The position numbers were made by a program, and so were the translations under genes. From NCBI RefSeq assembly GCF_017592395.1, contig NZ_JAGFOU010000005.1, positions 1-64,000 of the forward strand: a stretch of DNA of 64,000 nt. Direction: 5' to 3'. This DNA comes from Actinomyces bowdenii (GTDB lineage Bacteria > Actinomycetota > Actinomycetes > Actinomycetales > Actinomycetaceae). A model generated the notes under the pieces. That model did not search any database. It worked only from the letters and a program-made list of their open reading frames with translations, and was not told the origin of the DNA. Shown one piece after another: positions 39,238-55,796 of the stretch; within the stretch, counting starts at the first letter, position 1; each line of letters starts with the position of its first letter.

Positions 39238-40743
39238 TCAGCCCCTCGCCTCCGCCTCGACCGCAGCAGGCTCGGCGCGCTCGCCGCGGGCGCTCATCAC
39301 CGCCCAGTAGCACAGCGCCCCCAGGGGCGCGGCGATGAACCAGGAGAAGGGCGCCAGCTCGCGGCACAGCTCGAAGGGCAGCAGCGCGATGCACAGCGCC
39401 ACGATCGCCGCGGGGATGAAGGCCACGACCGCATTCATGTTGAAGCCCCGCTGGTAGTAGTAGCGCCCGTCCTCCCTGGGGGAGTAGAGGTCGCGCAGGT
39501 CGACCCGGGAGCGCTTGTAGTAGAAGTAGTCGAGCACCAGGATCCCGAAGAACGGGCCCAGCAGGGCTCCCAGGGAGCCCAGGAAGTAGGTGATCGCCGT
39601 GGGGCTGCCGTAGAGGTTCCACGGGGTGACCACGATGGAGGCGATGACCGCGATGATGCCGCCCACCCGGAAGGAGATGTGCTTGGGGTGGACGTTGGAC
39701 AGGTCGAAGGCCGCCGAGACGAAGTTGGCCACGATGTTGACCCCGATGGTGGCCACGATGAACCCGATGCTCACCACGTAGAAGACCAGGTCGTTGTCGA
39801 TGCGCGCCAGCAGGTCGCCGGGGTCGTGGAAGGCCTCGCCGTAGACCTCGATGGCGGCCGCCGAGCACAGCACGGAGGTCATGGCGAAGGCGGTCCAGTT
39901 CAGGGGCAGGCCCAGGGCGTTGCCCAGGATCATGGATCGGGCGCTGGGCGCGTAGCGGGCGAAGTCGGAGAAGTTGAGCATGAGGGTCGCCAGGGTCCCC
40001 ACGGTCAGGCCCACAGTGACCAGGATCTGGTAGACCTGGTAGCCCAGCGGGGGCGTGGCGCCGTCGGCGTTGACCATCCAGTCGAACCTCCAGTCGGCCT
40101 GCCACAGCATCCACACGCCCAGGCCGATCATGATCACCCAGATGATGGGCCCGGCCAGGCCCTGGAAGTGGCGCACCGCATCCATGCCGCGCCACACGAT
40201 GAACAGCTGGATCGCCGACAGCGCCAGGAAGGCGAGCCACCCCGAGGCGCGCAGCCCCAGGATGGAGGCGTCCCAGTCCTGCACCGCGGGGATGATCCGC
40301 ATGAGCAGCAGCTCCAGGGAGATCGAGGCCAGGTAGGTCTGGATGCCGTACCAGGCGATGGCCACGATCCCGCGCACGACCGCGGGGAAGTTCGCCCCCC
40401 ACACGCCCCAGGTCACGCGGGAGATCACGGGGTAGGGGGCGCCGGTCTCATAGCCCATGAGCCCCGAGATGCAGCACGCCCCGAAGATGATGAGGGTGGC
40501 CACGAGCACGCCGATGACGATCGCCAGGGGCGTCATGCCCATGAGGGCGCCCGTTCCGATGAACAGGGCGGCGGCGAAGGTGTAGTTCGAGGCGTTGTGG
40601 GCGTCATTCATCCACAGCGAGAACAGGGAGTAGCTGTTCCACGTGCGGTCACCGGGCCTGGCCGGGGCCAGGTCGTCATTGAACAGTCGTCCGTCCGCGT
40701 CACCGCGGCTCAGTTCCTCGCGGTCGACTTCCACGGCTTTCAT
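39238..40743 (-). CDS. NCS1-family nucleobase/ureide permease 2
   Basis: The ATG at 40743 has GAGGAG upstream and gives 501 residues; an ATG five codons earlier lacks it. Twelve membrane segments are expected. NCS1 features include LFNDDLAPARPGDRTWNSYSLFSLWMNDAHNASNYTFAAALF, AWYGIQTYLASISL, YPVISRVTWGVWGANFPAVVRGIVA and YFLGSLGALLGPFFGILVLDYFYYKRSRV. The family carries allantoin, hydantoins, cytosine, uracil or purines with Na+ or H+. It closes the large catabolic cluster, 128 bases after gcl. Together with the permease at 49379 this gives the cluster two importers, perhaps for different ureides. Confidence 0.9.
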   Translation of the reverse strand: MKAVEVDREELSRGDADGRLFNDDLAPARPGDRTWNSYSLFSLWMNDAHNASNYTFAAALFIGTGALMGMTPLAIVIGVLVATLIIFGACCISGLMGYETGAPYPVISRVTWGVWGANFPAVVRGIVAIAWYGIQTYLASISLELLLMRIIPAVQDWDASILGLRASGWLAFLALSAIQLFIVWRGMDAVRHFQGLAGPIIWVIMIGLGVWMLWQADWRFDWMVNADGATPPLGYQVYQILVTVGLTVGTLATLMLNFSDFARYAPSARSMILGNALGLPLNWTAFAMTSVLCSAAAIEVYGEAFHDPGDLLARIDNDLVFYVVSIGFIVATIGVNIVANFVSAAFDLSNVHPKHISFRVGGIIAVIASIVVTPWNLYGSPTAITYFLGSLGALLGPFFGILVLDYFYYKRSRVDLRDLYSPREDGRYYYQRGFNMNAVVAFIPAAIVALCIALLPFELCRELAPFSWFIAAPLGALCYWAVMSARGERAEPAAVEAEARG

Positions 40744-40818
40744 CTGGGCTCTCCTCACGCCGTTGTAGGGGAATGCAGGTGGATGATCGGTTGGGTCTCT
40801 TCTTCAGGGTGCGAGTCC

Positions 40819-40853
40819 CCAGGGGCACCGCCGCGATCGCGATGCCCCTGGGA
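40819..40853. other. Hairpin between gcl and the second permease gene
   Basis: CCCAGGGGCA (40819-40828) pairs with TGCCCCTGGG (40844-40853) around a 15-nt loop. It could attenuate transcription or stabilise transcript ends between the two genes. It is not followed by a T-run. Confidence 0.45.
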
Positions 40854-40870
40854 TCTCCCGGCTTCCCGGG

Positions 40871-42658
40871 TCAGGCGGGGCCGGCTCCGCGCAGGCCCAC
40901 CGCCTGGGGGGCGTCGACCGCCGGGTCCTCGGCGATCTCCTCGAACTCGTTGACCGCGTCGATGGCGGTGCCCATGGAGATGTTGGTGACGCGCTCGAGG
41001 ATGGCCTCGACCACCACCGGCACGCGGTCGCGCAGCGCGGTCTCGCGCGCAGTGGCCAGGGCCCGGGCCAGCTCCTCGGGGGTGCGCACGCGGATGGCCC
41101 GGCAGCCCAGGGCCTCCACGACGCCGACGTGGTCCACCCCGTACCCCTCGGTGGCGGGGGCGTTGATGTTCTCGAAGGAGAGCTGGACCTGGTAGTCCAT
41201 GTCGAAGTTGCGCTGGGCCTGGCGGATCAGCCCCAGGTAGGCGTTGTTGACCACCACGTGCACGTAGGGGATCTGGAACTGGGCGGCCACGGCGAGCTCC
41301 TCGATGAGGAACTGGAAGTCGTAGTCCCCCGACAGCGCCACCACCGGGGTCTCGGGGTCGGCCACGGCCGCCCCGATGGCCGCCGGGACGGTCCAGCCCA
41401 GGGGGCCGGCCTGGCCCGCATTGACCCAGTGCCGGGGCCGGTAGACGTGCAGCATCTGGGCCGCGGCGATCTGGGACAGCCCGATCGTGGTGACGTACCG
41501 GGTCTCGGGGCCGAAGGCGCGGCACATCTCCTCGTAGACCCGCTGCGGCTTCATGGGCACGTTGTCGAAGTGGGTCTTGCGCAGCAGGGTGGACTTGCGC
41601 TCGTCGCACTCCTCCACCCAGGCCCCGTAGCGCTCCAGGGGGGCGCCGTAGCGCTCCTGGGCGGCCTCCAGCAGGGTGCGCAGGGCCGCGCCGGCATCGG
41701 AGACGGACCAGAAGTCGGGCGGGAAGACCCGGCCGATCTGGGTGGCCTCGATGTCGATGTGCACGAAGCGGCGGCCCTCGCGGTAGGTCTCGATCCTCCC
41801 GGTGTGCCGGGCGGCCCACCGGTTGCCCACCCCGATGACCAGGTCGGAGGCCAGGAAGGTGGCGTTGGCGTAGCGCTGGGAGGTCTGGATGCCGGCCATC
41901 CCCTGGGCCAGGCGGTGGTCGTCGGGGATGGAGCCCCAACCCATGAGGGTGGAGATGACCGGGATGCCGAGGTACTCGGCCAGGGCCACGAGGTCCTCGG
42001 AGGCGTCGGCGTTGATGATGCCTCCACCGGCGATGAGCACGGGGTGCTCGGCGCCGTCGAGCATGTCCAGGATGCGCTCGGCCTGGTGGCGGGACATGGT
42101 CGGGCAGGTGACCGGCAGCGGCTCGTAGGCGTCGATGTCGAAGTCGATCTCCGCCATCTGGACATCCAGGGGCAGGTCGATGAGGACGGGCCCGGGGCGG
42201 TCGGAGCGCATGAGCTGGAAGGCCTTGGCGAAGGTGCCGGGGATCTGCGCGGGCTCCAGGACGGTGACCGCCATCTTGGTCACCGGGGCCGCCACCGAGG
42301 CGATGTCGACGGCCTGGAACTCCTCCTTGTGGAGCATGGGGACGGTGGCCTGCCCGGTCAGGCACAGGATCGGGATGGAGTCGGCGCTGGCCGAGTACAG
42401 GCCGGTGACCATGTCCGTCCCGCCCGGTCCCGAGGTTCCGATGCACACGCCGATGTTGCCTGCGCGGGTCCTGGTGAAGCCCTCGGCCATGTGGGAGGCG
42501 GCCTCGACATGGCGGGCCAGGATGTGCCGGATGCCGCCGTGCTGCTTCATCGCCGAGTACAGGGGGTTGATCGCCGCCCCGGGCACGCCGAAGGCCTGAG
42601 TGGCCCCCTCCTTCTCCAGGATGAGGGCGATCGCGTCAACTGCTCGCATTCGTGCCAT
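40871..42658 (-). CDS. gcl: Glyoxylate carboligase (tartronate-semialdehyde synthase)
   Basis: The product has 595 residues, the Gcl length. It is a ThDP enzyme of the acetolactate synthase superfamily. The usual cofactor-activating glutamate is replaced by valine, V51 in [16 protein letters not shown], as in E. coli Gcl, which distinguishes it from acetolactate synthase. The GDYDFQF...N ThDP site lies near residue 450. It joins two glyoxylates into tartronate semialdehyde with loss of CO2. It ends a tight run with the semialdehyde reductase (6-base gap) and the isomerase-like gene. Confidence 0.93.
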
Positions 42659-42664
42659 GACTTC

Positions 42665-43621
42665 TCACTTCCGGTCGTTACGGTGGGTGCCGCTGAGCAG
42701 TTCTGTCACCCGGACCACCGCAGCGTGGTCCAGGTCGGCCAGCCCATTGGCGACAGCGGCATCGAGCGTCTGGGTGACCGTCTGGGAAACGGGCAGGACG
42801 CAGCCGAGCGAGTCGGCCAGGTCCTGGGCGATTCTCATGTCCTTGGCGTGGAGCCCTGCGGTGAAGGTCGGGGAGAAGTCCCGGGAGAGGATGGCGGGGG
42901 CCTTGAGCTCCATGATCCGCGAGCCCGCGAGGCCGCCGGACAGGGCCGACAGCGCCCTCCCGGCGTCCAGGCCGCTGGCCTCCAGCAGCAGGACCGCCTC
43001 CCCCAGGGCCACCAGGCCGGCGCCGACGATCATCTGGTTGGCGGCCTTGGCCACCTGCCCCGAGCCGGCCGGCCCCAGGTGCGTGATCGTGGTGCCCATG
43101 GCCTCCAGGAGGGGCCGGGCGCGCTCCAGGGCCTGCTCGGCGCCCCCCACCATGATGGTCAGGGTCCCGGCCTGCGCGCCCCTGACGCCGCCGGAGACCG
43201 GGGCGTCGAGGACCTCGATCCCCAGCTCCTGGCCCCGGTCGGCCAGCTCCCTGGCCTCCCGGGGGCTGGCGGTGGTCATGTCGATGAGCAGGGTGCCGGC
43301 GGGCACAGTCCGCGCCACGCCGCCCTCCTGCTCCATGACCTCGCGGACGACGCCGCCGTCGGGGAGCATGGTGATGACGACGTCGGCCCCCTGGAGGGTC
43401 TGGGCCAGGGTGGCGCAGGCCCGGCCCCCGGCCGCCGTGAAGCGCTCCAGGCGCCGGGCGTCGCGCGAGCCCCCGCGGACCCGGTGGCCGGCCTCCAGGA
43501 GCCGCAGGGCCATGGGCAGGCCCATGGCCCCCAGGCCGACGAATCCGACGGTCCGCGGAGGGGGGCCGGAGGGGCCCGCCTGCCCGCTGGGCCCGGCCAC
43601 GCCGCTATGCATCATCATCAT
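42665..43621 (-). CDS. 2-hydroxy-3-oxopropionate (tartronate semialdehyde) reductase-type dehydrogenase
   Basis: The product has 318 residues from the first of several adjacent ATGs; the true start may be a few codons in. It belongs to the beta-hydroxyacid dehydrogenase family: Rossmann motif VGFVGLGAMGLPMALRLLEAGH, substrate loop DAPVSGGVRGAQAGTLTIMVGG, and catalytic lysine in GSGQVAKAANQMIVG. It lies between gcl and the isomerase-like gene, so reduction of tartronate semialdehyde to D-glycerate (GlxR/GarR) is the likely reaction. An L-threonate dehydrogenase role (LtnD) is the alternative, because a DUF1537 kinase lies in the same cluster. Confidence 0.85.
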   Translation of the reverse strand: MMMMHSGVAGPSGQAGPSGPPPRTVGFVGLGAMGLPMALRLLEAGHRVRGGSRDARRLERFTAAGGRACATLAQTLQGADVVITMLPDGGVVREVMEQEGGVARTVPAGTLLIDMTTASPREARELADRGQELGIEVLDAPVSGGVRGAQAGTLTIMVGGAEQALERARPLLEAMGTTITHLGPAGSGQVAKAANQMIVGAGLVALGEAVLLLEASGLDAGRALSALSGGLAGSRIMELKAPAILSRDFSPTFTAGLHAKDMRIAQDLADSLGCVLPVSQTVTQTLDAAVANGLADLDHAAVVRVTELLSGTHRNDRK

Positions 43622-43633
43622 GCCCCCGGCCTG

Positions 43634-44554
43634 TCACAGGATGCGCCAGGCCTCGCGCAGGACGCGCTTGGCCTCGGCGATGATGACGGCGGCGCGCTGG
43701 TCGCCCAGCGGCTGGACCTCGAAGGCCACGACGCTGCGCTCGGGGGCGTCCTCGCGCAGGTAGCCGATGTCCAGCAGCCCGCGCAGGAAGTCCCGCACCT
43801 GCGGCACGTTGTTCTCGCCCTTGGGGTGCCCGAAGTGGGGGTGGAGGTCGCCGTAGGCGGGGTCCTGGGTGTCGCGGATGACGCAGTTGCCGATGTGGGC
43901 GTGGTTGATGAACTCCTCGGTGGCACTCAGCGCCTGGCGGATGGTCTCGCCCTGCATGGGCAGGTGGGACAGGTCCACCATGAGGCCGAAGTCCGGGATG
44001 GCCTTGCGCACCTCGTAGGCCAGCTCGCAGGCCAGCCGGTTGGTGCCGATGAGGGCCTTCTTGTCCGTGGAGTCGTCGAAGGTCTCCAGGGAGAGCACCA
44101 GGTCGCCCTTGGACTTGGCGTAGCGCCCCAGCTCGATGATGGAGTCGGCCAGCAGCTCCAGGGCCCGGTCGCGGTCCTGCGCGGGCGGCTTGGGTCCCGA
44201 CAGGAAGCCGAGCTTGCCCGCACCGACCTCGTAGGCCTGGTCGATGGCCGACTTCAGGGTCTCGACGGCCTTGCCGCGCTCCTGCTCATCGGTGGAGTTC
44301 AGGTCCAGCTTCCCCTTGAGGATGTAGGGCTGGGCCCCGAATCCCACGGTCATGCCGGAGCTGGCCAGCAGGGTCTTGACGGCGTCGCGCTCGGCCTGGT
44401 CGTTGACGCGGGTGATCTCGATCTCGTCGAAGAACTCGTCCTCGACGATCTCGGCCACTGATTCCGCGATCCTGCCTTCGCCGCTGAGGGCGAAGGGGTA
44501 GGCCATGAAGTGGACGATGCCGACCTTCATGTAATCGTGCAGAGATTCCTTCAC
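43634..44554 (-). CDS. Xylose-isomerase-like TIM barrel, hydroxypyruvate or 2-oxo-tetronate isomerase candidate
   Basis: The GTG at 44554 has AAGGAG 8 bases upstream and gives 306 residues; the ATG at 44530 does not have that spacing. The fold is a sugar phosphate isomerase/epimerase barrel with metal ligands visible in LSLETFDDST (Glu), MVDLSHLPMQG (Asp/His), NHAHIGNC (His) and VAFEVQPL (Glu). It is longer than classical Hyi (about 258 residues) and divergent in the N-terminus. Position directly before the GlxR-type gene and gcl suggests it interconverts tartronate semialdehyde and hydroxypyruvate. An OtnI-type role on 2-oxo-tetronate is possible. Confidence 0.75.
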   Translation of the reverse strand: MKESLHDYMKVGIVHFMAYPFALSGEGRIAESVAEIVEDEFFDEIEITRVNDQAERDAVKTLLASSGMTVGFGAQPYILKGKLDLNSTDEQERGKAVETLKSAIDQAYEVGAGKLGFLSGPKPPAQDRDRALELLADSIIELGRYAKSKGDLVLSLETFDDSTDKKALIGTNRLACELAYEVRKAIPDFGLMVDLSHLPMQGETIRQALSATEEFINHAHIGNCVIRDTQDPAYGDLHPHFGHPKGENNVPQVRDFLRGLLDIGYLREDAPERSVVAFEVQPLGDQRAAVIIAEAKRVLREAWRIL

Positions 44555-44632
44555 AGTTCCCGCTCCTTAATGGTCTGACTGGCCCTGGGGGCCAGGTGGT
44601 CTTCTCTCATCCGGTTGATCTCGGTGATCGGG

Positions 44633-45574
44633 TCAGCCGCGGCGGGCGCGGACCCGGCGCGCGGCCCCGGCGATATCGGCGGCCCGCAGGCCGAAGTGGT
44701 CGAAGAGCTCGTCCATGGTTCCCGACAGGCCGAAGACGTCCCGCGTGCCCACCCGCTCCAGGGGCGCGGGGTGCTGCTCGGCCAGGAGCTCGGCGACGGC
44801 CGAGCCCAGTCCGCCGATGATCGAGTGCTCCTCGATGGTCACCGCGCAGCCCGTGCGGCGCACCGACTCCAGGACGGCCTCGGCGTCCAGCGGCTTGACG
44901 GTGTGGAGGTGGAGGACCTCGGCGCTGATGCCCTCGGCCTCGAGCAGCTCGGCGGCGCCCAGGGCCTCGGAGGCCGTGCAGCCGGTGTTGAGGATGGTGA
45001 CATCGCCGCCCTCGCGCAGCGGGACCGCCCTGCCGATCTCGAAGGGCGTGTCCGAGCTGGTGACCACCGGCACCGGCAGCTTGCCCACGCGCAGGTAGAC
45101 CGGTCCGGGGTGGTCGTAGACGGCGTGGACGGCCTTGCGCATCTCCACCGCGTCGCAGGGGACGATGACGGTCATGCCCGGAAGGGCCCGCATGAGGGCG
45201 ACATCCTCCAGGGGCAGGTGGGTGGCGCCCTCCTGGGCGGCGGTGGTTCCCGCGTTGTGGCCCACGACGGTGACCTTGCGCTCGGAGTAGGCCACCGAGA
45301 CGCGCACCTGGTCGAAGCCCCGCCCGGTCAGGAAGTTGGCGTAGGCGTTGGCGAAGGGGACCTTGCCCTGGGCCGCCATTCCGGCGGCGGTGCCGATGAT
45401 GTCGCACTCGGCGATGCCGATGTTGAAGAAGCGGTCGGGGTGGGCCTCCTGGAAGCGGGCCGTGTAGTTCGGCTTGGCGCAATCCCCGTCCAGGACGAAG
45501 ACGTCGTCGTGCTCGCCCCCGATCTCCAGCAGTCCCTCGGCATAGCCGTCGCGGGGCTCTCTCTTCTCACTCAT
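44633..45574 (-). CDS. Transketolase, C-terminal subunit
   Basis: The product has 313 residues: the pyrimidine-binding domain with the catalytic glutamate in FFNIGIAECDIIGTAAGMA, then GHNAGTTAAQEGATHLPLEDVALMR, and the C-terminal transketolase domain to EHSIIGGLGSAVAELL. It is one half of a split transketolase. The start overlaps the stop of the N-terminal half by four bases (ATGA), so the halves are made together. In this cluster the pair could use hydroxypyruvate, a known irreversible ketol donor for transketolase, linking glyoxylate carbon to sugar phosphates. Confidence 0.9.
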   Translation of the reverse strand: MSEKREPRDGYAEGLLEIGGEHDDVFVLDGDCAKPNYTARFQEAHPDRFFNIGIAECDIIGTAAGMAAQGKVPFANAYANFLTGRGFDQVRVSVAYSERKVTVVGHNAGTTAAQEGATHLPLEDVALMRALPGMTVIVPCDAVEMRKAVHAVYDHPGPVYLRVGKLPVPVVTSSDTPFEIGRAVPLREGGDVTILNTGCTASEALGAAELLEAEGISAEVLHLHTVKPLDAEAVLESVRRTGCAVTIEEHSIIGGLGSAVAELLAEQHPAPLERVGTRDVFGLSGTMDELFDHFGLRAADIAGAARRVRARRG

Positions 45575-46395
45575 CGCAGCTCCTCCAGCGCAGTCTCGAG
45601 CTCCTCGGGGGTGGGTGCGAGCCCGTGGAACTTCGCGGTGTTCTCCATGAAGGACACTCCCTTGCCCTTGATGGTGTGGGAGATGATCACAGTGGGCCTG
45701 CCCTTGGTGGCCCTGGCCTCCTCAAGGGCCTCGTCCACCTGGCGCATGTCGTGCCCATCGACCTCGATGACGTGCCAGCCGAAGGCGCGCCACTTGGCGG
45801 GCACGTCGCCCAGGGACTTGACGCTGTCGACGGTGCCGTCGAGCTGGATGCCGTTGGCATCGACGATGGCGCAGACCTGGTCCAGGCTGTAGGCGGCCGC
45901 GGTCATCGCGGCCTCCCAGACCTGCCCCTCCTGGATCTCCCCGTCGCCGAGCATGACGTAGTAGCGGGAGTCCCGGCCGTCGTGCCTGGCGGCCAGGGCG
46001 GCGCCGTTGGCCAGCGACAGCCCCTGGCCCAGGGAGCCCGAGGAGGAGTCGACCCCGGGCAGATGGGTGTTCGAGGGGTGGCCCTGGAGCCTGGTGTGCA
46101 TCTCCCGGAAGGTCATGAGCTCCTCGCGGGGGAAGTACCCGCGGGCGGACATCGCGGTGTAGTAGGCGGGGGTGCAGTGGCCCTTGGACAGGAAGAACAT
46201 GTCGCGCTCGGGCCACATGGGCTCCTCGGGGCGGATGTTCAAGTGCCGGAAGTAGAGGACGACAAGCGCATCAATCGCGGAGAGCGACCCTCCGGGGTGC
46301 CCACTGCCCGCCTTGTTCGTCATGCGGACGATATCGCGCCGGCACTGACGCGCAATATCCTCCAGCTCCTGTAGCTGTGCATCGTTCATCATCAT
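45571..46395 (-). CDS. Transketolase, N-terminal subunit
   Basis: Three adjacent ATGs (46395, 46392, 46389) follow GAGGAG; the first gives 274 residues, and the true start may be the second. The ThDP domain is complete: NKAGSGHPGGSLSAIDALVVLYF, SKGHCTPAYY, SSSGSLGQGLSLANGAALAARH and the cofactor motif MLGDGEIQEGQVWEAAMTAAAYSLDQVCAIVDANGIQLDG. It pairs with the overlapping C-terminal subunit gene. Split transketolases of this type occur in dedicated catabolic clusters, separate from the housekeeping enzyme. Confidence 0.9.
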   Translation of the reverse strand: MMMNDAQLQELEDIARQCRRDIVRMTNKAGSGHPGGSLSAIDALVVLYFRHLNIRPEEPMWPERDMFFLSKGHCTPAYYTAMSARGYFPREELMTFREMHTRLQGHPSNTHLPGVDSSSGSLGQGLSLANGAALAARHDGRDSRYYVMLGDGEIQEGQVWEAAMTAAAYSLDQVCAIVDANGIQLDGTVDSVKSLGDVPAKWRAFGWHVIEVDGHDMRQVDEALEEARATKGRPTVIISHTIKGKGVSFMENTAKFHGLAPTPEELETALEELR

Positions 46396-46466
46396 CGTCT
46401 CCTCGTCGGTGCGGGGGCCTGGGAGTCGCCCGGGCGGCTCCCAGGCCCCCGACGTCATCTCATCGC

Positions 46467-46880
46467 TCAGACCTCGCGGAAGGAGATCTCCTGGGCCCCC
46501 TCCCACAGGAACTTCTCGCCGAGCTCGTGGAGGTGCTCATTGCCCTCGACGATCGTGGCGAAGTGATTCCCGGCGAGCTGGCCCGCCTTGGAGGCGAAGT
46601 TGACGTAGCCGTAGCCGATGAGCAGCTCGGTCTCCGAGACGCCGCCGGGGTAGATGACGATCTCGCCGGGGTGCGGGTAGCAGGTGCCGTTCTCGGGCTC
46701 CAGCTCCAGGTCGAGGTCGCCGAAGGGGATCCAGCCGGCCTGCCCCGACCAGCGCACGTGGATGATCCGCGAGTCCAGCGGGAGCAGCTTCTCGCGGAAG
46801 GCCGCGATCGTGCGGGGGGCGGCCTCCTCCTCGTAGCGGGCCTTGAAGGTGAATCCTCCGGCCTTGATCTCAAGCATCAT
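46467..46880 (-). CDS. DUF3830 family protein
   Basis: The product has 137 residues and is soluble. Recognisable DUF3830 stretches are EEEAAPRTIAAFREKLLPLDSRIIHVRWSGQAGWIPFGDLDLELEPENGTCYPHPGEIVIYPGG and ETELLIGYGYVNFASKAGQLAGNHFATIVEG. The family is predicted to have a cyclophilin-like barrel and occurs beside ureide- and amide-degrading genes, as here (carbamoyltransferase upstream, transketolase downstream). No reaction is established. Given the steps missing from this cluster, it is a candidate enzyme or binding protein for a ureido intermediate. Confidence 0.85.
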   Translation of the reverse strand: MMLEIKAGGFTFKARYEEEAAPRTIAAFREKLLPLDSRIIHVRWSGQAGWIPFGDLDLELEPENGTCYPHPGEIVIYPGGVSETELLIGYGYVNFASKAGQLAGNHFATIVEGNEHLHELGEKFLWEGAQEISFREV

Positions 46881-46931
46881 TGCAGGTCTCTCTTTCTCAA
46901 CGGTTGGTGTTCAGGTGGTGACGATTCGGGC

Positions 46932-47927: not shown

Positions 47928-47995
47928 GAGTATCTCCTCACTGTGATAGCGGATAAGTGCGTGTCAGGGGGTGTCCATGGGGATCGGGGTGCGGA

Positions 47996-49342: not shown

Positions 49343-49378
49343 GATCGGGTCTCCTGAAGTCGTCTTGGTCGGTGGTGG

Positions 49379-50890
49379 TCATCGGGCCACGGAGTCGCGG
49401 TCGGCGTCGAGATCCAGGGCCTCGGCCTGCCGGACCGCGCGGATGACGTAGGGGTCGTCGCGGGAGATGGCCAGGTGGAGCCCGAAGCCCAGGGCCGCCC
49501 CGATGAACCAGGAGAACGGGCTGAGGAAGCGGCAGATCTCGGTGGGGACCACGGCCACGATGATCGAGGGGATCGAGGCCAGGACGAAGGCCCACACGGC
49601 GCGCATGTTCCAGCCGTTGCCGAAGGCGTGCAGGCCATTGGCCCGGAACAGCTCGGAGACCTGGACCTTCTCGCGGCGCAGGTAGTAGTAGTCGGCGATG
49701 ATGATGCCGAACAGGGGGCCCAGCACGGCGCCCAGGGCGGCGAGGAACACATTGATGATCACCGGGTTGTTGAACAGGTTCCACGGGGTGATGACCAGGG
49801 CGATGCAGGCGGAGATGAAGCCGCCGCGCACGAAGTTGATCTTGGAGGGCCAGGCGTTGGCCAGGTCATAGGCGGGGGACACGAAGTTCGCCACCACGTT
49901 GATGCCCAGCGTGGCCACGGTGAAGGTGACGGCGCCCAGGATGATGGCCACGGGGTGGTCGATACGGGCCACCAGGTCGATGGGGTCGAAGATGTACTCG
50001 CCGTAGATCTGCAGGGATCCGGCCGTCACCAGGACCGAGACCACGGAGAAGGCGATGAAGTTGACGGGCAGGCCCCACAGGTTGGCCATCCACACGGCCT
50101 TGCGCGTGGGTGAGAAGCGGGAGAAGTCGCAGAAGTTGAGCAGGAGGGTGGAGAAGTAGGCCACGGTCAGCGATACCGCGGCCAGGACGGCGTGCAGGGT
50201 GCCCCACTCGGCCGGCTCGGTGGCCAGGTTGAGGGAGATGTGCCAGTCGGCGAGCATGAGGATGTAGACGGTCAGGATGAACATGACCACCCACACCGCC
50301 GGCCCGGCCCAGTCCTGGAACTTGCGGATGGTCTCCATGCCGTTGCGCAGGAGCAGCAGCTGGAGGGCCCACATGAACAGGAAGGCGGCCCAGCCCAGGA
50401 GGCTCTCACCCAGGAAGCGGGCCTGGCCGAACTCGAGGATATGCGGCCAGATGCCGGCGACCAGGACGATGACGGCCTTGGAGGCCAGCCATGTCTGGAT
50501 CCCGTACCAGCAGATGGCCACGAAGCCCCGCAGCAGGGCCGGGAGGTTGGATCCGACTGTCCCGAAGGTGATGCGCGCCAGGACGGGGTAGCACAGCCCC
50601 GTCTTCTGGCCCGCGAATCCCACGAGGTTCATGAGGAAGAAGACGACGATGATTCCGATCGTCAGGGAGGTGAACACATAGGCCGCGCCCAGGCCCAGGG
50701 CGAAGAGCCCGGCGGCGAATGTGTACCCGCCAATGGAGTGGATGTCCGACATCCACATGGCGAACAGGGAGAAGAATCCCCAGTCGCGGCTCTTGGCGGG
50801 GGCCAGATCGTCATTGATCAGGTGGGGGTCGATATCCGCCGGCTCCACCGGCACGCCTTCGCGGGTTGAAGGCGCTGCGCTACTTTCCAC
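49379..50890 (-). CDS. NCS1-family permease 1, probable allantoin importer
   Basis: The GTG at 50890 follows AGGACA with good spacing and gives 503 residues. Twelve membrane segments are expected. The NCS1 pattern is clear: LINDDLAPAKSRDWGFFSLFAMWMSDIHSIGGYTFAAGLFALGL, YPVLARITFGTVGSNLPALLRGFVAICWYGIQTWLASKA, LNFCDFSRFSPTRKAVWMANLWGLPVN and FLAALGAVLGPLFGIIIADYYYLRREKVQV. It lies directly upstream of the allantoinase gene, so allantoin or a related hydantoin is the likely substrate. It shares about the same architecture as the permease at 39238. Confidence 0.9.
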   Translation of the reverse strand: MESSAAPSTREGVPVEPADIDPHLINDDLAPAKSRDWGFFSLFAMWMSDIHSIGGYTFAAGLFALGLGAAYVFTSLTIGIIVVFFLMNLVGFAGQKTGLCYPVLARITFGTVGSNLPALLRGFVAICWYGIQTWLASKAVIVLVAGIWPHILEFGQARFLGESLLGWAAFLFMWALQLLLLRNGMETIRKFQDWAGPAVWVVMFILTVYILMLADWHISLNLATEPAEWGTLHAVLAAVSLTVAYFSTLLLNFCDFSRFSPTRKAVWMANLWGLPVNFIAFSVVSVLVTAGSLQIYGEYIFDPIDLVARIDHPVAIILGAVTFTVATLGINVVANFVSPAYDLANAWPSKINFVRGGFISACIALVITPWNLFNNPVIINVFLAALGAVLGPLFGIIIADYYYLRREKVQVSELFRANGLHAFGNGWNMRAVWAFVLASIPSIIVAVVPTEICRFLSPFSWFIGAALGFGLHLAISRDDPYVIRAVRQAEALDLDADRDSVAR

Positions 50891-50953
50891 GGCAGTGTCC
50901 TTTCAGTGTTCTCTTGGCCCGGCGGGCACCCTTGTCCGCCCGGGGAGGGGGTA

Positions 50954-51895
50954 TCAGTTGGTGATGCAGGTCCCGGCCCTGCCGGCGACGGCGTCCTGGA
51001 GGGACTCGAGGGAGGTGATGATGGCGCGCTCGCCACCGGCCTCCAGGAAGTTGAGGGCGGCCTCGATCTTGGGGGCCATGGAGCCCTTCCCGAAGTGCCC
51101 CTCCTCCAGGTAGGAGCGGGCCTCCTGCGCGGTGATCGTGCTCAGCGCCCTCTGCTCGGGGGTGCCGAAGTCGAGGTAGACCTGCTCCACGGCGGTGCAG
51201 ATGACCAGGTCGGGCACGCCGAGCCTGGAGGCCAGGAGGGCGGAGGCCAGGTCCTTGTCGATAACGGCCTCGACCCCGTTGAGCCGGCCGTCCTCGCGGC
51301 TGACGGGGATGCCGCCACCGCCCGCGGCCACCACGATGCAGCCGGAGTCGACCAGGGAGCGGATGACCTCGCACTCGACGATCTCCACGGGCGCCGGGGA
51401 GGGCACGACCCGGCGCCAGCCGCGGCCGGAGTCCTCGCGCACGGACCAGCCGTCCTTCTCCTCGTGCTCGCGGGCCTCCTCCTGGCTCATGAAGGAGCCC
51501 ACCGGCTTGGAGGGGGCGGCGAAGGCCGGGTCATCGGGATCGACGACGCTCTGGGTGACCACCGCGACGACCTCGCGCTCGATGCCCTGCTGGGCCAGGC
51601 ATCCGCACAGGCTGCGGCTGAAGAGGTAGCCGGTGGCGCCCTGGGTGTCCGCGCCCAGGACGTCCAGGGGCAGCGGGGGCAGCTCATCGAGGGCCAGCTC
51701 GGCCCGGCGCAGCAGGAAGCCGACCTGCGGGCCGTTGCCATGGGTGACCACGGGGGTGCGGCCCGCGGCGATGAGTGCGGTGATGTGCTCGGCGGACTCG
51801 CGGACGGCCTCGGCCTGGCTCGCGACCGACACCTCCCCGGGGTCCTTGATGAGGGCGTTGCCGCCGACGGCGATGACGAGTGCCCTGCTGCTCAT
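50954..51895 (-). CDS. arcC: Carbamate kinase
   Basis: The product has 313 residues. The amino-acid-kinase fold begins ALVIAVGGNALIKDPGE, with VVTHGNGPQVGFLL, VVAVVTQSVVDPDDPAF, VVAAGGGGIPVSRE, VIDKDLASALLA and GSMAPKIEAALNFLEAGGERAIITSL, all carbamate kinase signatures. GAGAGGAAG precedes the ATG. It transfers the phosphate of carbamoyl phosphate to ADP, yielding ATP, NH3 and CO2. There is no arginine deiminase here. With the carbamoyltransferase of the same cluster it points to energy recovery from ureido groups. Confidence 0.93.
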   Translation of the reverse strand: MSSRALVIAVGGNALIKDPGEVSVASQAEAVRESAEHITALIAAGRTPVVTHGNGPQVGFLLRRAELALDELPPLPLDVLGADTQGATGYLFSRSLCGCLAQQGIEREVVAVVTQSVVDPDDPAFAAPSKPVGSFMSQEEAREHEEKDGWSVREDSGRGWRRVVPSPAPVEIVECEVIRSLVDSGCIVVAAGGGGIPVSREDGRLNGVEAVIDKDLASALLASRLGVPDLVICTAVEQVYLDFGTPEQRALSTITAQEARSYLEEGHFGKGSMAPKIEAALNFLEAGGERAIITSLESLQDAVAGRAGTCITN

Positions 51896-51919
51896 GGGGT
51901 GCTTCCTCTCCTGCTCGGT

Positions 51920-52657
51920 TCAGTTCTCGGCCGGCATCCGCGATGACAGCGGCCAGCCATCGATCCGCTTGGGTCGCGGGGGTGCGTAGGTGCGGGACTT
52001 CGAGGTCCTCAGGCCCAGGGCGACGAGGGACTCGGCGAGCTTGACGGCGCAGGCCACGCCCTCCACGACGGGCACCCCCAGGTCCCGGCTCAGCTCGGCG
52101 TTGAGCCCGGCCATGCCGCCGCAGCCCAGGACGATGACCTCGGCGCGGTCCTGGGCCACGGCCTCCTCGGCCTGGCGGGCGACGGCCCGCGCGGCGCGCT
52201 CGGCGTCCTCCAGCTCCAGGACGCCCAGGCCTGTGGAGCGCACGGAGGCGCAGTGCTCCCGCAGGCCGAATGACAGCAGCCGGTCCTCGATGAGGGGCAC
52301 GGCCCGGTCCAGGGTGGTCACCACTGAGAAGCGGTAGCCCAGGAGCATGGCCATATGCGCTGCGGCCTCGGTGATATCGACGACGGGGACCTCGAGGAGC
52401 TCCATGAGCCCCTCCTTGCCGTGCTCGCCGAACCCGGCCAGGATCACGGCGTCGGCCTCGCCCTCATAGGCGGTGACGGCGTCCATGACGGCGACGGCGG
52501 CGAGATGGGACTCGAAGTTCCCCTCAACCGAGTCCGCCCCGATAGCCGGGGTGAGCTCGATGATCTCGGTGCCCTCGCCGGCCACGGCGCGAGCGGCCTC
52601 GCCGATGCTGCGGGTCATGGATCGGGTGGTGTTGACGTTGACTGCGAGGATCTTCAT
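51920..52657 (-). CDS. Asp/Glu/hydantoin racemase family protein lacking the first catalytic cysteine
   Basis: The ATG at 52657 (GGAG upstream) begins the family sequence MKILAVNVNTTRSMTRSI and gives 245 residues; the longer frame is unrelated. The second cysteine is present, C179 in VIVLGCGGMAGL. The first, normally in an ACF-type loop, is replaced by glycine at about residue 75 (AVILAGFGEHGKEG). Two-cysteine racemases need both, so this is perhaps a one-cysteine enzyme such as the decarboxylases of the superfamily, or a divergent allantoin-linked member (DCG1-like). It heads the promoter-proximal end of the ureide operon, just after an operator. Confidence 0.8.
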   Translation of the reverse strand: MKILAVNVNTTRSMTRSIGEAARAVAGEGTEIIELTPAIGADSVEGNFESHLAAVAVMDAVTAYEGEADAVILAGFGEHGKEGLMELLEVPVVDITEAAAHMAMLLGYRFSVVTTLDRAVPLIEDRLLSFGLREHCASVRSTGLGVLELEDAERAARAVARQAEEAVAQDRAEVIVLGCGGMAGLNAELSRDLGVPVVEGVACAVKLAESLVALGLRTSKSRTYAPPRPKRIDGWPLSSRMPAEN

Positions 52658-52751
52658 TGCTCCGCGCTCTCCGGTTTGCTGTGCCTGCGTCTGTGCGGGG
52701 GGGGTGGGACGGGAGGGCGCCACCATGCGCACTCCACTCATATCTCTGAGG

Positions 52752-52770
52752 TCAGTCCTCTGAGGTGTTG
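52752..52770. promoter_or_regulatory. GntR-type operator, copy 2
   Basis: TCAGTCCTCTGAGGTGTTG matches the perfect palindrome at 54980-54998 at 14 of 19 positions, including the entire centre CCTCTGAGGT. It lies immediately downstream of the promoter at 52777-52805, so a bound regulator would block transcription into the racemase-arcC-permease-allB operon. Confidence 0.65.
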
Positions 52771-52776
52771 ATGTCA

Positions 52777-52805
52777 ATTAGATCACTGCTCGGCCGTCTT
52801 GGCAA
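52777..52805 (-). promoter_or_regulatory. Sigma-70-type promoter of the ureide operon
   Basis: On the - strand, TTGCCA (52800-52805) and TCTAAT (52777-52782) are separated by exactly 17 bases, each matching its consensus at five of six positions. Transcription would start near 52770, at the edge of the operator. Confidence 0.6.
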
Positions 52806-52881
52806 GCCCCGTGGAACCGAGAGAAGTGGTGCTCGACAGTGAGTGCAACCACCTCATACATCATCTAAGACAAGCAAAGAG

Positions 52882-52913
52882 CAGGAGGAGGGCGCCCGTG
52901 GGCGCCCTCCTCC
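52882..52913 (-). terminator. Rho-independent-like terminator
   Basis: AGGAGGAGGGCGCCC (52882-52896) pairs perfectly with 52899-52913 over 15 bases with a 2-nt loop. On the - strand it is followed by CTCTTTGCTTGTCTT. It ends the transcript of the small membrane protein gene and separates it from the ureide operon promoter. Confidence 0.75.
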
Positions 52914-52964
52914 TGGTGGTGACCGTCAGCAGGTGGCGATAACGGACACCAAACGTGTTGTGAA

Positions 52965-53240
52965 TCACATGCCAGCGCGGCGCAGCTCCCGGAAGGCGGT
53001 GCCCACGCACACGACGACGGAGACCATCGCGGTGGCGACCACGACGGGCATGGCGTTGGCGATGGCGGCGAAGATGGTGAACATGCCCAGGATCGCGAGG
53101 ATGGCGAGCACGGTGGTCACCACGGTGATGTCGGCGTGACCGGTGGTGGAGGCCTGCCGCTCCTCACGGGCCTTCTCCACCGCGGGGGTGCGAACCGCCT
53201 CGACGACGGGAGTGCTGATGGGTGCGACCAGAGTCGACAT
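52965..53240 (-). CDS. Small two-segment membrane protein, unknown
   Basis: The product has 91 residues, with AGGAGC before the ATG. About 38 polar residues precede two hydrophobic segments (ITVVTTVLAILAILGMFTIFAAIA and AMPVVVATAMVSVVVCVGTAF), and the protein ends in basic RELRRAGM. I do not recognise a family. It stands alone between a terminator and the DUF1537 gene, inside the catabolic cluster but perhaps not part of it. Confidence 0.65.
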   Translation of the reverse strand: MSTLVAPISTPVVEAVRTPAVEKAREERQASTTGHADITVVTTVLAILAILGMFTIFAAIANAMPVVVATAMVSVVVCVGTAFRELRRAGM

Positions 53241-53489
53241 GAATGCTCCTGCTTCTTCTTCTCATCTCATGCGGCAGGAGCACCGCTCTGCGGCCGCGCC
53301 CCTGCACGGCCTTGTGCGCCTCTCGTGGAGGCCTGCGGGGAGCCTATATCACCTCAGAGCACTGAGCAGCGTCAGATTCATCACGAGCCCTTCGGGCTGC
53401 GGGACCCGCGAACGGCAGCAGCCAGGCGGCAGTGGTTCAGCACCGCGCACGGCGCCGCCCGCCACGGGCCCCAGCGGCCGGGCGCCGGG

Positions 53490-54956
53490 TCAGTCCCGGC
53501 CGAGCAGGACCCCGACCACCGCCGTCAGTGCCGCCTCATCCCCGACATTGCCCGGGAAGACGACGTAGGGGACGCCGCGCGCCGGGCCGTCGCAGGCCGC
53601 CCACAACGAGACGATGCCCGGCAGCATGGGGCCCACGCAGTGGGCGCGCCTGATGCCCAGACCGCGGGAGGCGACGTCGGAGGAGGTGATCCCGCCCTTG
53701 GCCAGGACGAAGCGGGGGCGGATGCGCTCCAGGATGCCCGCGACCGCCTCCACCACCGCCGCGGAGACCCTGCGGGACAGCTCCAGGGACTCCTCGGCGT
53801 CGGCGCCCGTGACCAGGGTCCTGGAGGTGCGCACGATGACGGTGCCCTCCTCCAGGCGCTCCACGGCCCGGGAGATGAGGGACTCCAGGTGGGCGGTCCT
53901 GGTCGCCTCCTCGAGGACCTTGGGGACCTCCACCTCCAGCACCGGGGCCCCCACCGCGCCGATGAGGTGCTCGAGCTGCCTGGTGGTCAGCGCCACGTGG
54001 GAGCCGACGACGACCAGGCCGCCGGCGGCGGTGCGCAGGGCCGGCTCGGCGCCCCGATCCGCCGCGGCCGGGGGCCGGCGCACCGCCTCGACCTCCTCAC
54101 TGGTCAGAGGCGGGTGGAGCTCCTGACCCAGGCGGGCCCGCATGAAGGGTGGGCCGACCCGGTAGACGAAGGTGCGCCCCCGGGCCTCCGCGGCGATCAG
54201 CGCCCGCGACAGGGCCAGCAGGTCCTGCTCGCAGGCGATGTCGGGGGCGATGACCTGCCGGTCGTGCGCCGAGGCCAGGGCCTGGGCCAGGGCCTCGGGG
54301 CGGGTGCGGACCTCGGTGAGATCCGGGGTGAGCACCTGGGAGGCGCTCACCGCCCCGGCCGTCTTCTCCTCGACCCATTGGGCCAGGCCCGAGGCGCTGT
54401 AGCCGAAGGTGGCATCGCGGGCGAACTCGGTGAGCCCGCTGGGCAGGAGGTCCTCGCCCACGCGCGTGTAGTGGACGCCGCCCACCGTGACCCGGCCCGC
54501 CTCGGGGAAGGCCGGCACCAGGACGATGCCGTCGACCGGCCGCCCCTCCTCCTCCAGGAGGTCGGCGATGAGCTGGGGCTCGAGCGGGAAGTGCCCCCGC
54601 AGGGTGGAGTCGGAGCGGCTGACGAAGGCCAGGCGCCTGCCGGCCCGCCGGCCCGCGGCGCCGGCGGCGCCCACGACCTCGCGGGTCACGCGCCCGGCCT
54701 CCTGCGGTGACAGGGAGCGCGAGTTGGTCATGACGTAGACCGCCGGGGCGCCCGTGCCCAGGGCCCAGGCGAGATCGTCCTGGGTCCAGGAGGTCAGGAC
54801 CGGGAGCCCCGAGACGGACTGGGTGCCCGTGGGGTCGTCGTCGAGCACGACGAAGAACGGGTCGATGCCCGCGGCTGCGGCCGCATCCCTGACATCGGAG
54901 GGCGTCAGACCGGGCGCGGGCGGGTAGGGCGCCACGATGTCACTGAGGGTGGCCAC
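53490..54956 (-). CDS. DUF1537 four-carbon acid sugar kinase family protein
   Basis: The GTG at 54956 has AAGGAG six bases upstream and gives 488 residues; the ATGs at 54974/54971 lack a site. The N-terminal domain has FFVVLDDDPTGTQSVSGLPVLTSW and FVSRSDSTLRGHFPLE, the substrate-binding signatures of OtnK/DtnK/LtnK kinases. The C-terminal nucleotide domain has RFVLAKGGITSSDVASRGLGIRRA and GIVSLWAACDGPARGVPYVVFPGNVGDE. Known members phosphorylate 3- or 2-oxotetronates and threonate or erythronate. Here no glycerate kinase is present, so phosphorylation of glycerate or a related acid is a possible alternative. It lies 117 bases after the GntR gene, behind a perfect operator palindrome. Confidence 0.88.
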   Translation of the reverse strand: MATLSDIVAPYPPAPGLTPSDVRDAAAAAGIDPFFVVLDDDPTGTQSVSGLPVLTSWTQDDLAWALGTGAPAVYVMTNSRSLSPQEAGRVTREVVGAAGAAGRRAGRRLAFVSRSDSTLRGHFPLEPQLIADLLEEEGRPVDGIVLVPAFPEAGRVTVGGVHYTRVGEDLLPSGLTEFARDATFGYSASGLAQWVEEKTAGAVSASQVLTPDLTEVRTRPEALAQALASAHDRQVIAPDIACEQDLLALSRALIAAEARGRTFVYRVGPPFMRARLGQELHPPLTSEEVEAVRRPPAAADRGAEPALRTAAGGLVVVGSHVALTTRQLEHLIGAVGAPVLEVEVPKVLEEATRTAHLESLISRAVERLEEGTVIVRTSRTLVTGADAEESLELSRRVSAAVVEAVAGILERIRPRFVLAKGGITSSDVASRGLGIRRAHCVGPMLPGIVSLWAACDGPARGVPYVVFPGNVGDEAALTAVVGVLLGRD

Positions 54957-54979
54957 GCTGCTCTCCTTCATCATTGAAG

Positions 54980-54998
54980 TTAGACCTCTGAGGTCTAA
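54980..54998. promoter_or_regulatory. GntR-type operator, copy 1 (perfect palindrome)
   Basis: TTAGACCTCTGAGGTCTAA has 9-bp perfect arms around one central base. It lies upstream of the DUF1537 gene, just after a - strand TAAGAT -10-like element at 55000-55005. It is 76 bases from the GntR coding region, whose product is the likely binder. Confidence 0.75.
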
Positions 54999-55073
54999 GA
55001 TCTTAGCATGATCGAGCGCCCCCGGGCGCCCGGGGCGGTCCTGTCAGCGACCCTCAGCGACCCTCAGTGGCTC

Positions 55074-55796
55074 TCAGAGGTTCTCGGAGAGCTCCCCGCC
55101 GCGGCGCTCCCTGGCGGTGAGGATGTCCCGCCGTGTCTGCGCCATGTGCTCGTGCATGAGGCCGGCGGCCCGCTCGGCATCCTGCGCCTCGACCGCCTCC
55201 AGGATCTGGCGGTGATGGGAGATCACCGTGGCCCGCACCTCCTCGGACTCCGAGGCCCTGAACCTGGTCCCCAGAAGCGCGTCGCGGAAGGGGTGCATCG
55301 TCGAGGCGACGAACTGGTTCCCGGTGGCCGCCAGAATGGCGTCATGGAAGGCGTGGTCCAGGCCGATGAGCGCCTGGATGTCATCGGCCTTGGCGGCGAT
55401 CCGGTACTCCTCCACGCAGCGGCGCATCTCGATGAGGTCCTCCTCGGAGCGCTGGGCGGCGGCCAGTCGGACAGCACCGACCTCCAGCATCTCCTCCACT
55501 CCGAGCAGGTCGAGCTCCACCTCCTGCACGCGCCCCTCGTGGGCGGCCACGTACAGCAGGTAGCGCAGCTCGCGCCACCGGAATCGGGGGAGCAGGAAGG
55601 TCCCCCGCCCGTGCACGACGTTGAGGACCCCGCCCATGGACAGGTTCCTCACCGCCTCCCTCATGGTGGGTCGCGAGACCCGCAGGAAGCGGGCCAGCTC
55701 GGCCTCGGCGGGCAGTGGCTCCTCCTCCACGAAGGTCCTGTCGACGACGGCGTCCAGGACGCCCTCAACGGCGCGCTCCACCAGGTCGTTGGCCAT
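55074..55796 (-). CDS. GntR-family (FadR/FCD) transcriptional regulator
   Basis: The ATG at 55796 is chosen because AAGGAG stands six bases upstream; it gives 240 residues. The N-terminal winged helix reads LPAEAELARFLRVSRPTMREAVRNLSMGGVLNVVHGRGTFLLP. The C-terminal FCD domain has the metal/effector residues in GLDHAFHDAILAATGN and SHHRQILEAVEAQDAERAAGLMHEHM. It is the first gene of the minus-strand cluster and presumably binds the palindromes at 54980-54998 and 52752-52770. The inducer is likely a ureide or a hydroxy-acid intermediate, which is inference. Confidence 0.9.
   Translation of the reverse strand: MANDLVERAVEGVLDAVVDRTFVEEEPLPAEAELARFLRVSRPTMREAVRNLSMGGVLNVVHGRGTFLLPRFRWRELRYLLYVAAHEGRVQEVELDLLGVEEMLEVGAVRLAAAQRSEEDLIEMRRCVEEYRIAAKADDIQALIGLDHAFHDAILAATGNQFVASTMHPFRDALLGTRFRASESEEVRATVISHHRQILEAVEAQDAERAAGLMHEHMAQTRRDILTARERRGGELSENL

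Follow-up and report, generated by a model that had tools for sequence, protein, structure and literature searches.

The closest described relative of the system reported here is the allantoin route of Rubrobacter xylanophilus, in which the carbamoyltransferase Rxyl_2847, named UGTCase, phosphorolyses allantoate to ureidoglycine and carbamoyl phosphate in vitro (Barba et al. 2013, PMC4016543). A 2015 review supplied a table of UGTCase residues together with an H(T/S)LP motif; it presents the italicised residues as suggestions only and states that no UGTCase structure existed (PMC4581275). Here we analyse a cluster of Actinomyces bowdenii that carries an orthologue of this enzyme. The window, i.e. 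the whole stretch of 64,000 nucleotides that was analysed, is the first 64 kb of the 142,544-base contig NZ_JAGFOU010000005.1, in a genome of 3.10 Mb. A sequence-only reading of the window had placed 14 named genes on a single strand, and profile searches of the open reading frames (ORFs) recovered all 14, on the minus strand only, within 39238-55814. Taken as a whole, this locus is probably a UGTCase-type allantoin catabolic cluster with a step assigned to a DUF3830 protein and a transketolase outlet for carbon. The genes on which this explanation is built are the following.

46932-47927, minus strand: UGTCase orthologue (carbamoyltransferase), assigned from its identity to the enzyme of the Rubrobacter-type locus L168, its position in the tree and its motifs
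47996-49342, minus strand: allantoinase AllB (TIGR03178 563 bits, above the cut-off of 358; PDB matches 3hm7 and 3e74)
50954-51895, minus strand: carbamate kinase (CK; TIGR00746 379 bits, above the cut-off of 358)
46467-46880, minus strand: DUF3830 protein (PF12903 104.9 bits, cut-off 26)
45571-46506, minus strand: N-terminal, thiamine diphosphate (ThDP)-binding subunit of a split transketolase (PF00456 196 bits)
44633-45574, minus strand: C-terminal subunit of the split transketolase, with Pyr and TKC domains (best PDB match 6yaj, 299 bits)
43634-44554, minus strand: xylose-isomerase-like TIM barrel forming a family of its own (PF01261 59.7 bits; TIGR03234 18.9 bits)
40871-42658, minus strand: glyoxylate carboligase (GCL; TIGR01504 1025 bits, above the cut-off of 711)

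The carbamoyltransferase is a UGTCase orthologue

The nearest solved structures of the carbamoyltransferase are aspartate carbamoyltransferases (ATCases). Assignment as an ATCase was nevertheless rejected: the aspartate-binding RxQ motif (R229/Q231 in ATCase) is absent and GCS stands in its place. A separate carbamoyltransferase adjoins a dihydroorotase-like match elsewhere in the same genome (G000:C30). The motifs STRT, HPTQ, HTLP and GCS are invariant in 17 carbamoyltransferase rows and correspond to the UGTCase pattern of STRT, HPxQ and H(T/S)LP without RxQ.

Five more close relatives (521-526 bits), the L168 enzyme among them, were found in a phylum sample of 396 genomes. The L168 protein is 339 residues long and carries 13 of the 14 residues of the review's table at the published numbers (S74, T75, R76, T77, S102, K106, H155, Q158, R189, S258, K261, T298 and L299); position 126 is L in L168, compared with R126 in the review (PMC4581275). 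Its gene order is also the published one, namely uricase, allantoinase, DUF3830, carbamoyltransferase and CK. From the residue numbering and the gene order, the L168 enzyme is taken to be the R. xylanophilus UGTCase Rxyl_2847. The window carbamoyltransferase is 62% identical to it, has the H(T/S)LP motif in common with it, and carries 12 of the 13 listed residues as well, the exception being K261, which is A254. In a tree of 52 chosen rows both enzymes fall in one clade (support 98/93), and the UGTCase clade is split from 13 ATCase-type rows at 100/100. The product of 46932-47927 is a UGTCase orthologue, with a predicted activity of allantoate + phosphate <-> ureidoglycine + carbamoyl phosphate.

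Table 1 of the 2013 paper prints the motifs of pseudo-ATCase group 1 as HPLA and AIA (PMC4016543). These disagree with the L168 sequence and with the 2015 review, and the group labels of that table look swapped or mistaken (PMC4016543). A placement of the window enzyme in "pseudo-ATCase group 2" of the same table was dropped because the review and L168 show HTLP and GCS for the tested enzyme.

Among the UGTCases collected, that of the record "Actinomyces sp. ph3" (L059/L062 pair) is near-identical to that of a Trueperella pyogenes record, and one of the labels may be wrong. A sister UGTCase clade with an HSLP motif (L084-L134) occurs in Sutterella, Neisseria, Cardiobacterium, Pseudomonas and Synergistota, often with an aminohydrolase, an allantoinase-type gene and CK. 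In several marine gammaproteobacterial loci of this clade the fetched flanks contain CK but lack both DUF3830 and the aminohydrolase.

Phosphorolysis probably takes the place of hydrolysis in UGTCase genomes

The distribution of allantoate-degrading enzymes was surveyed in 149 genomes, our own genome (G000) included. Allantoinase scored above the TIGR03178 cut-off in 40 of them. UGTCase was found in 17 (E <= 1.1e-145; next best 4e-51), every one of which has AllB above the cut-off. None of these 17 genomes has an allantoicase or a match above the cut-off to TIGR01879, the AllC/carbamoylase type, whereas 21 of the 23 AllB genomes without UGTCase have at least one of the two (18 with TIGR01879, 3 with allantoicase alone; Fisher p 2e-9, ignoring kinship). 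The ureidoglycolate lyase family PF04115 was found in none of the 149 genomes. A canonical route elsewhere in the A. bowdenii genome was rejected on a genome-wide search that covered TIGR01879, allantoicase and ureidoglycolate lyase and gave no match to any of the three.

Because the orthologous enzyme is active in vitro and the genome has no match to these three canonical enzymes, the proposal of the sequence-only reading that ureido groups are released by phosphorolysis and not by hydrolysis is well supported, and it is very likely that phosphorolysis coupled to CK operates in this cluster. The same reading had also known of no described pathway of this kind. For the phosphorolysis half this does not hold: a unit of allantoinase, carbamoyltransferase, CK and glyoxylate-to-glycerate genes was described by Barba et al. 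(PMC4016543), and that half has been in print since 2013. Literature searches on UGTCase, on allantoin use by Actinomyces, on transketolase-linked glyoxylate routes and on allantoate phosphorolysis gave no further matching pathway among the matches listed.

The allantoinase loci of two genomes without UGTCase, L173 (genome G112) and L174 (genome G094), carry reductase-type and carboligase genes, and L174 has a glycerate kinase gene as well. No allantoate enzyme was found among the four ORFs scanned there (three in L174, one in L173).

DUF3830 alternates with ureidoglycine aminohydrolase beside UGTCase

A short form of DUF3830 (94-105 bits) is present in all 17 UGTCase genomes. DUF3830 occurs in 5 other genomes of the 149, always in a canonical form with higher scores (194-227 bits). 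The DUF3830 gene of L168 separates allantoinase from UGTCase and stands at the place of Rxyl_2846, which is listed as "Unknown" in the table of the 2013 paper (PMC4016543). That paper proposed an asparaginase (Rxyl_2849) for the ureidoglycine step (PMC4016543); an asparaginase gene was noted next to the cluster in L049.

We searched 85 loci of the UGTCase family (80 kept of 125 confirmed matches, plus 5 of Rubrobacter type; a few duplicate one another almost exactly or share a genome) with the window DUF3830 and the (S)-ureidoglycine aminohydrolase of L074 as queries (tblastn, E 1e-5, at least 40% of the query). DUF3830 alone was found in 22 loci, the aminohydrolase alone in 41, neither in 22, and both in none. 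Both genes lie close to UGTCase. The distance is at most 100 nt for DUF3830 in 19 of 22 loci; for the aminohydrolase it is at most 300 nt in 32 of 41 loci and at most 3 kb in 37. In a further set of 16 loci (L035-L050, from overlapping genomes and outside the count of 85) DUF3830 is present in all and the aminohydrolase in none. All 11 aminohydrolases checked score above the NCBIfam cut-off; the Chloroflexi cluster L074, for instance, combines UGTCase, CK and a true allantoinase with an aminohydrolase (TIGR03214 250 bits, cut-off 200). An allantoinase-type gene accompanies DUF3830 in 21 of 22 loci and the aminohydrolase in 29 of 41; the TIGR03178 profile confirmed it for the window, L074, L080 and L092. 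CK is found in 15 of 22 and 28 of 41 respectively. GCL is present in 20 of 22 DUF3830 loci and in 1 of 41 aminohydrolase loci. We predict a different end point for the aminohydrolase-type clusters, perhaps oxalurate.

DUF3830 shows no homology to the cupin aminohydrolase (TIGR03214): only PF12903 matches, with no NCBIfam family at E 0.001, and we liken the two proteins in role only. In the PDB, the uncharacterised protein 3kop gave a weak sequence match (E 2e-4). The residues invariant in 20 rows include H41, R43, W44, E63, E73, E83, E85, K98 and N105. On a UGTCase tree of 44 chosen rows the DUF3830 state needs two changes, one in Rubrobacter and one in an Actinomycetaceae-centred clade, and a single DUF3830 clade appeared in 0 of 200 bootstrap trees. 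The mutual exclusion with the aminohydrolase, the adjacency to UGTCase and the partnership with GCL suggest that DUF3830 handles the passage from ureidoglycine to glyoxylate. We consider it somewhat probable, from these genomic associations, that DUF3830 acts on ureidoglycine or on a product of it.

In five of the 41 aminohydrolase loci (L070, L074, L076, L080 and L081, from Chloroflexota and Spirochaetota) we observed a ketol-acid-reductoisomerase-like gene and a second, ornithine-type carbamoyltransferase. These genes may perhaps serve a second carbamoyl-phosphate harvest, from ureidoglycolate or oxalurate.

A split transketolase and its barrel partner

The two transketolase ORFs encode separate ThDP (N) and Pyr/TKC (C) chains that retain catalytic Glu and His residues, as in split-gene transketolases. 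When the C chain was searched, its best PDB match was the split-gene transketolase of Carboxydothermus hydrogenoformans (6yaj), an enzyme assayed with hydroxypyruvate as donor (PMC7661550). The N chain, whose true start is probably the ATG near 46395, has the equivalents of H26, H66, H100 and H261. In TktA numbering, R358, E411, H461 and H473 are kept in the C chain, S385 is not; the roles of these residues are presumed here to be those of TktA. A full-length transketolase is encoded in this genome as well, by a frame at C12:107890.

Orthologues of the N chain (at least 74% identity; next 44%) were found in 13 of the 149 genomes, all of which have allB and UGTCase. The match in one of them (G021, C1:2111083-2112015) holds an in-frame TGA, a sequencing error or a sign of decay.

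The barrel is not recognisable as a hydroxypyruvate isomerase by its sequence, since it scores far below the cut-off of 353 bits of TIGR03234, a value reached in none of 19 genomes. Its invariant residues in 14 rows are E157, D194, H197, H220 and E279. The barrel retains an E-D-H-E pattern, which is typical of metal-dependent sugar isomerases with the xylose-isomerase-like fold, and is a candidate isomerase of tartronate semialdehyde and hydroxypyruvate. All four UGTCase genomes without the transketolase module, and both Rubrobacter-type genomes searched, have a hydroxypyruvate isomerase homologue of 245-317 bits in the cluster. In the 13 transketolase genomes no such homologue exceeds 111 bits, and 7 have none above 20 bits. 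The module alternates with hydroxypyruvate isomerase in this way. In the most straightforward interpretation, the transketolase would receive its hydroxypyruvate from the barrel.

We also considered a phosphoketolase outlet, in which 2 glyoxylate would give acetyl phosphate via xylulose 5-phosphate. It was rejected, as XFP occurs in 53 of the 149 genomes and in none of the 17 with UGTCase.

Conservation of the cluster in relatives

Synteny was examined in 16 relatives' loci of at most 20 kb each; tblastn matches were counted when they spanned 40% or more of the query. GCL, DUF3830, the carbamoyltransferase and allantoinase are each present in 16 of 16, and this recurrence of the cluster core is not due to chance. 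The transketolase pair is found in 12 loci and the barrel in the same 12; CK and the GntR/FCD regulator each occur in 10 of 16, and the DUF1537 kinase in 3 of 16. The latter was rejected as a core member on this count. The sequence-only reading would have been refuted by a lack of co-conservation between the transketolase and allB; this refutation failed, as 13 of 13 transketolase genomes have allB and the carbamoyltransferase.

In L044 and L045 it is the carbamoyltransferase and DUF3830 that flank the transketolase and barrel. The barrel of L042 (5905-6824) aligns in two pieces, which may reflect a sequencing error or decay.

Proposed pathway and its alternatives

In the scheme that we favour, an NCS1 permease would import allantoin, which may be racemised before AllB opens it to give allantoate. 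The carbamoyltransferase would split allantoate with phosphate into ureidoglycine and carbamoyl phosphate, as its Rubrobacter orthologue does in vitro, and CK, by its family function, would use the carbamoyl phosphate and ADP to give ATP and carbamate, the source of NH3 and CO2. Ureidoglycine, which is labile, may then be led towards glyoxylate by DUF3830, which would substitute for the cupin (S)-ureidoglycine aminohydrolase, or provide an alternative to it, without being homologous. GCL would condense 2 glyoxylate to tartronate semialdehyde and CO2. The version found in Actinomyces could have an outlet via hydroxypyruvate, made up of the barrel and the split transketolase, with the latter converting hydroxypyruvate and an aldose phosphate to a ketose phosphate and CO2. 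By hand calculation this outlet, run over the pentose phosphate pathway, would be redox-neutral, with 3 glyoxylate yielding 1 triose and 3 CO2, and would run beside the reductant-consuming outlet through reductase and glycerate kinase.

Several observations weigh against this scheme. The second ureido group has no step in it. CK is absent from 6 of the 16 relatives' loci, a count for the loci and not for the rest of those genomes. The position of Rubrobacter UGTCase K261 is Ala in all 17 alignment rows. All 17 UGTCase genomes come from one family, so that the exclusion patterns amount to few evolutionary events and are confounded by kinship. Two genomes, G094 and G112, have allantoinase without UGTCase, AllC-type or allantoicase matches over the cut-off; the absence of a hydrolase match therefore does not force phosphorolysis. 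Neither DUF3830 nor the aminohydrolase was found in 22 of the 85 loci, several of which are on short contigs, but L099, L105, L110 and L114 have 10 kb on both sides. A single DUF3830 clade is not rejected by the approximately unbiased (AU) test (p 0.215, 44 chosen rows). On the side of the outlet, D469 of transketolase is Glu in 12 of 12 sequences and R520 is Lys in 11 of 12, an isomerase homologue of 101-110 bits is encoded outside the cluster in 6 of the 13 transketolase genomes, and glycerate kinase was found in all 17 UGTCase genomes.

In the first alternative, carbon leaves only by the classical glycerate outlet (carboligase, reductase and a glycerate kinase encoded elsewhere), while transketolase and barrel serve another substrate, such as a sugar or sugar acid, under the same regulator. 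Besides the glycerate kinase of all 17 UGTCase genomes, this alternative can draw on the reductase-type gene, which the window shares with 6 of the 12 relatives' transketolase clusters, on the DUF1537 kinase of some clusters and on the two substitutions, which hint at a different substrate; together with the loss of S385, they mean that the substrates of the transketolase, for example the acceptor, may be unusual. It accounts less well for the 6 of 12 clusters that lack the reductase-type gene, for the confinement of the transketolase to UGTCase genomes (13 of 13 in the sample of 149), for the alternation of transketolase and barrel with hydroxypyruvate isomerase, and for their position between DUF3830 and the carboligase side, which is that of the window and of 10 of 12 relatives' clusters. 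We regard a glycerate-only outlet as possible, if on the unlikely side. As the UGTCase genomes all have glycerate kinase and the reductase-type gene persists in the window and half of the clusters, the transketolase outlet is neither required nor exclusive. Carbon entry via hydroxypyruvate and transketolase is plausible; it is conserved with the pathway, and is supported rather than proven by the genomic data. Our estimate that the outlet uses hydroxypyruvate stays tentative, a little short of an even chance.

A second alternative makes DUF3830 a helper of UGTCase, i.e. a subunit or channelling partner that shields labile ureidoglycine, or a regulator, and not a pathway enzyme. The protein is small and its gene mostly adjoins that of UGTCase, our literature search found no function for DUF3830, and ureidoglycine can decay unaided (PMC4016543). 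Set against this, the protein that takes the place of DUF3830 next to UGTCase in other loci, ureidoglycine aminohydrolase, is catalytic, and many invariant residues of DUF3830 are polar (H41, R43, E63, E73, E83, E85, K98 and N105 in 20 rows). We hold the helper role to be unlikely. The last alternative, a carbamoyltransferase whose specificity has shifted to a different ureide (ureidoglycolate, oxalurate or a hydantoin product) while an unrecognised enzyme hydrolyses allantoate, could appeal to K261 being Ala in Actinomycetaceae and to G094 and G112 as signs that such enzymes may exist, but is very improbable given the conserved published positions, the 62% identity, and neighbours (allantoinase, DUF3830 and CK) that are those of Rubrobacter.

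The most far-reaching form of the proposed scheme combines its two new elements: DUF3830 would be a second, non-cupin family processing ureidoglycine, the barrel and transketolase a redox-neutral outlet from glyoxylate to sugar phosphate, and a single operon would earn ATP and assimilate glyoxylate without reductant. We put this combination forward as a doubtful possibility.

Other genes of the cluster and a candidate operator

The remaining members of the cluster are as follows.

39238-40758, minus strand: NCS1-family permease b, candidate importer of allantoin or another ureide (PF02133 294.9 bits)
42665-43621, minus strand: tartronate-semialdehyde reductase-type dehydrogenase (TIGR01505 293 bits, under the cut-off of 341)
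49379-50890, minus strand: NCS1-family permease a (PF02133 301.8 bits)
51920-52777, minus strand: Asp/Glu/hydantoin racemase-family protein, candidate allantoin racemase (PF01177 168.9 bits)
52965-53240, minus strand: small ORF of 91 aa with a hydrophobic stretch, above the racemase gene (tblastn matches in 8 of 12 relatives' transketolase loci)
53490-54974, minus strand: DUF1537 kinase of the four-carbon acid sugar kinase family, accessory (PF07005/PF17042)
55074-55814, minus strand: GntR/FCD regulator, candidate regulator of the cluster (PF07729/PF00392)

The permease at 39238-40758 scores 274 bits with the allantoin permease model NF008476, under the cut-off of 620, and the racemase-family protein matched no NCBIfam family at E 0.001. 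The ORF at 42665-43621 is assigned as reductase-type only, its score being too low for tartronate-semialdehyde reductase. From the racemase gene through the permease gene at 39238, the gaps between ORFs are only -40 to +112 nt, and these genes are therefore likely to form one transcription unit. The cluster is flanked by genes for a DUF817 protein (38157-39104) and an MFS transporter (56004-57482); an MFS match adjoins the cluster in several relatives and DUF817 in one. Nothing notable was seen between 38900 and 56500 among 20 of at least 60 direct repeat families and 25 of 449 inverted pairs.

Two exact copies of an operator-like site were found.

52752-52767, minus strand: operator-like site CACCTCAGAGGACTGA, exact match at the start of the racemase ORF
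53350-53365, plus strand: second operator-like copy, above the small ORF, exact match in the opposite orientation

The pattern is the 16-mer CACCTCAGAG(C/G)ACTGA. The first copy overlaps the first codons of the racemase as called, and the true start of the racemase may lie further in. A copy with 3 mismatches is located at 54980-54995, directly above the DUF1537 gene, and the remaining two of the 5 window matches are outside the cluster. With up to 3 mismatches, these 5 matches compare with 1.36 expected, and 2 of 100 shuffles reach 5; the test is partly circular, as the pattern was derived from the same region and its relatives. The core 14-mer is present in 7 of the 12 relatives' transketolase-type loci (L035, L036 and L039-L043). 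The GntR/FCD regulator encoded at 55074-55814 is the natural candidate to bind this site.

Significance and comparison with known systems

Judged by the loci collected here, a purine route tested so far in a single organism extends to many lineages, among them Actinomycetota, Chloroflexota, Pseudomonadota and Synergistota. Allantoate phosphorolysis itself is known; the parts of the pathway that look new are DUF3830 and the dedicated split transketolase. The DUF3830 family, named in none of the 5.39 million papers searched, gains a concrete and testable predicted function that would fill the "Unknown" gap of the 2013 paper (PMC4016543). It is the most informative unknown of the cluster, a point missed by the sequence-only reading, and its real opening. 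The hydroxypyruvate-driven, CO2-releasing reaction is treated as a biocatalysis tool in the split-transketolase paper (PMC7661550). The transketolase outlet, if true, would be a natural hydroxypyruvate-driven, CO2-releasing entry to the pentose phosphates.

Dedicated two-gene transketolases with isomerase-type partners are found in other catabolic clusters, AptAB for apiose and SqwGH for sulfoquinovose, and act on substrates other than those proposed for the Actinomyces pair. The R. xylanophilus route shares with the Actinomyces cluster an allantoinase, an allantoate-phosphorolysing carbamoyltransferase, CK and downstream glyoxylate genes (PMC4016543). Unlike that route, the Actinomyces cluster has neither uricase nor xanthine dehydrogenase among its genes and has NCS1 permeases and a racemase; the L168 cluster, for its part, contains a hydroxypyruvate isomerase homologue in place of the split transketolase and special barrel. 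The anaerobic allantoin pathway of Escherichia coli (AllB-AllC-AllE-AllD, AllFGH-AllK) likewise starts with allantoinase and harvests carbamoyl phosphate with CK, but allantoate is hydrolysed and carbamoyl phosphate arises later, from oxalurate (PMC11326118), whereas in Actinomyces it would come from allantoate and the product would be glyoxylate. In Pseudomonas aeruginosa, the allantoin-inducible glyoxylate-to-pyruvate genes PA1498-PA1502 also bring glyoxylate from allantoin into central metabolism, and carboligase and hydroxypyruvate isomerase are named; transketolase is not mentioned in the available part of that paper (PMC12694930). Finally, the C. hydrogenoformans enzyme resembles the Actinomyces pair in being made of two chains, and accepts hydroxypyruvate as donor in vitro (PMC7661550, 6yaj). 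There the split enzyme is the sole transketolase (PMC7661550), whereas in Actinomyces it comes on top of another transketolase and is encoded within an allantoin cluster.

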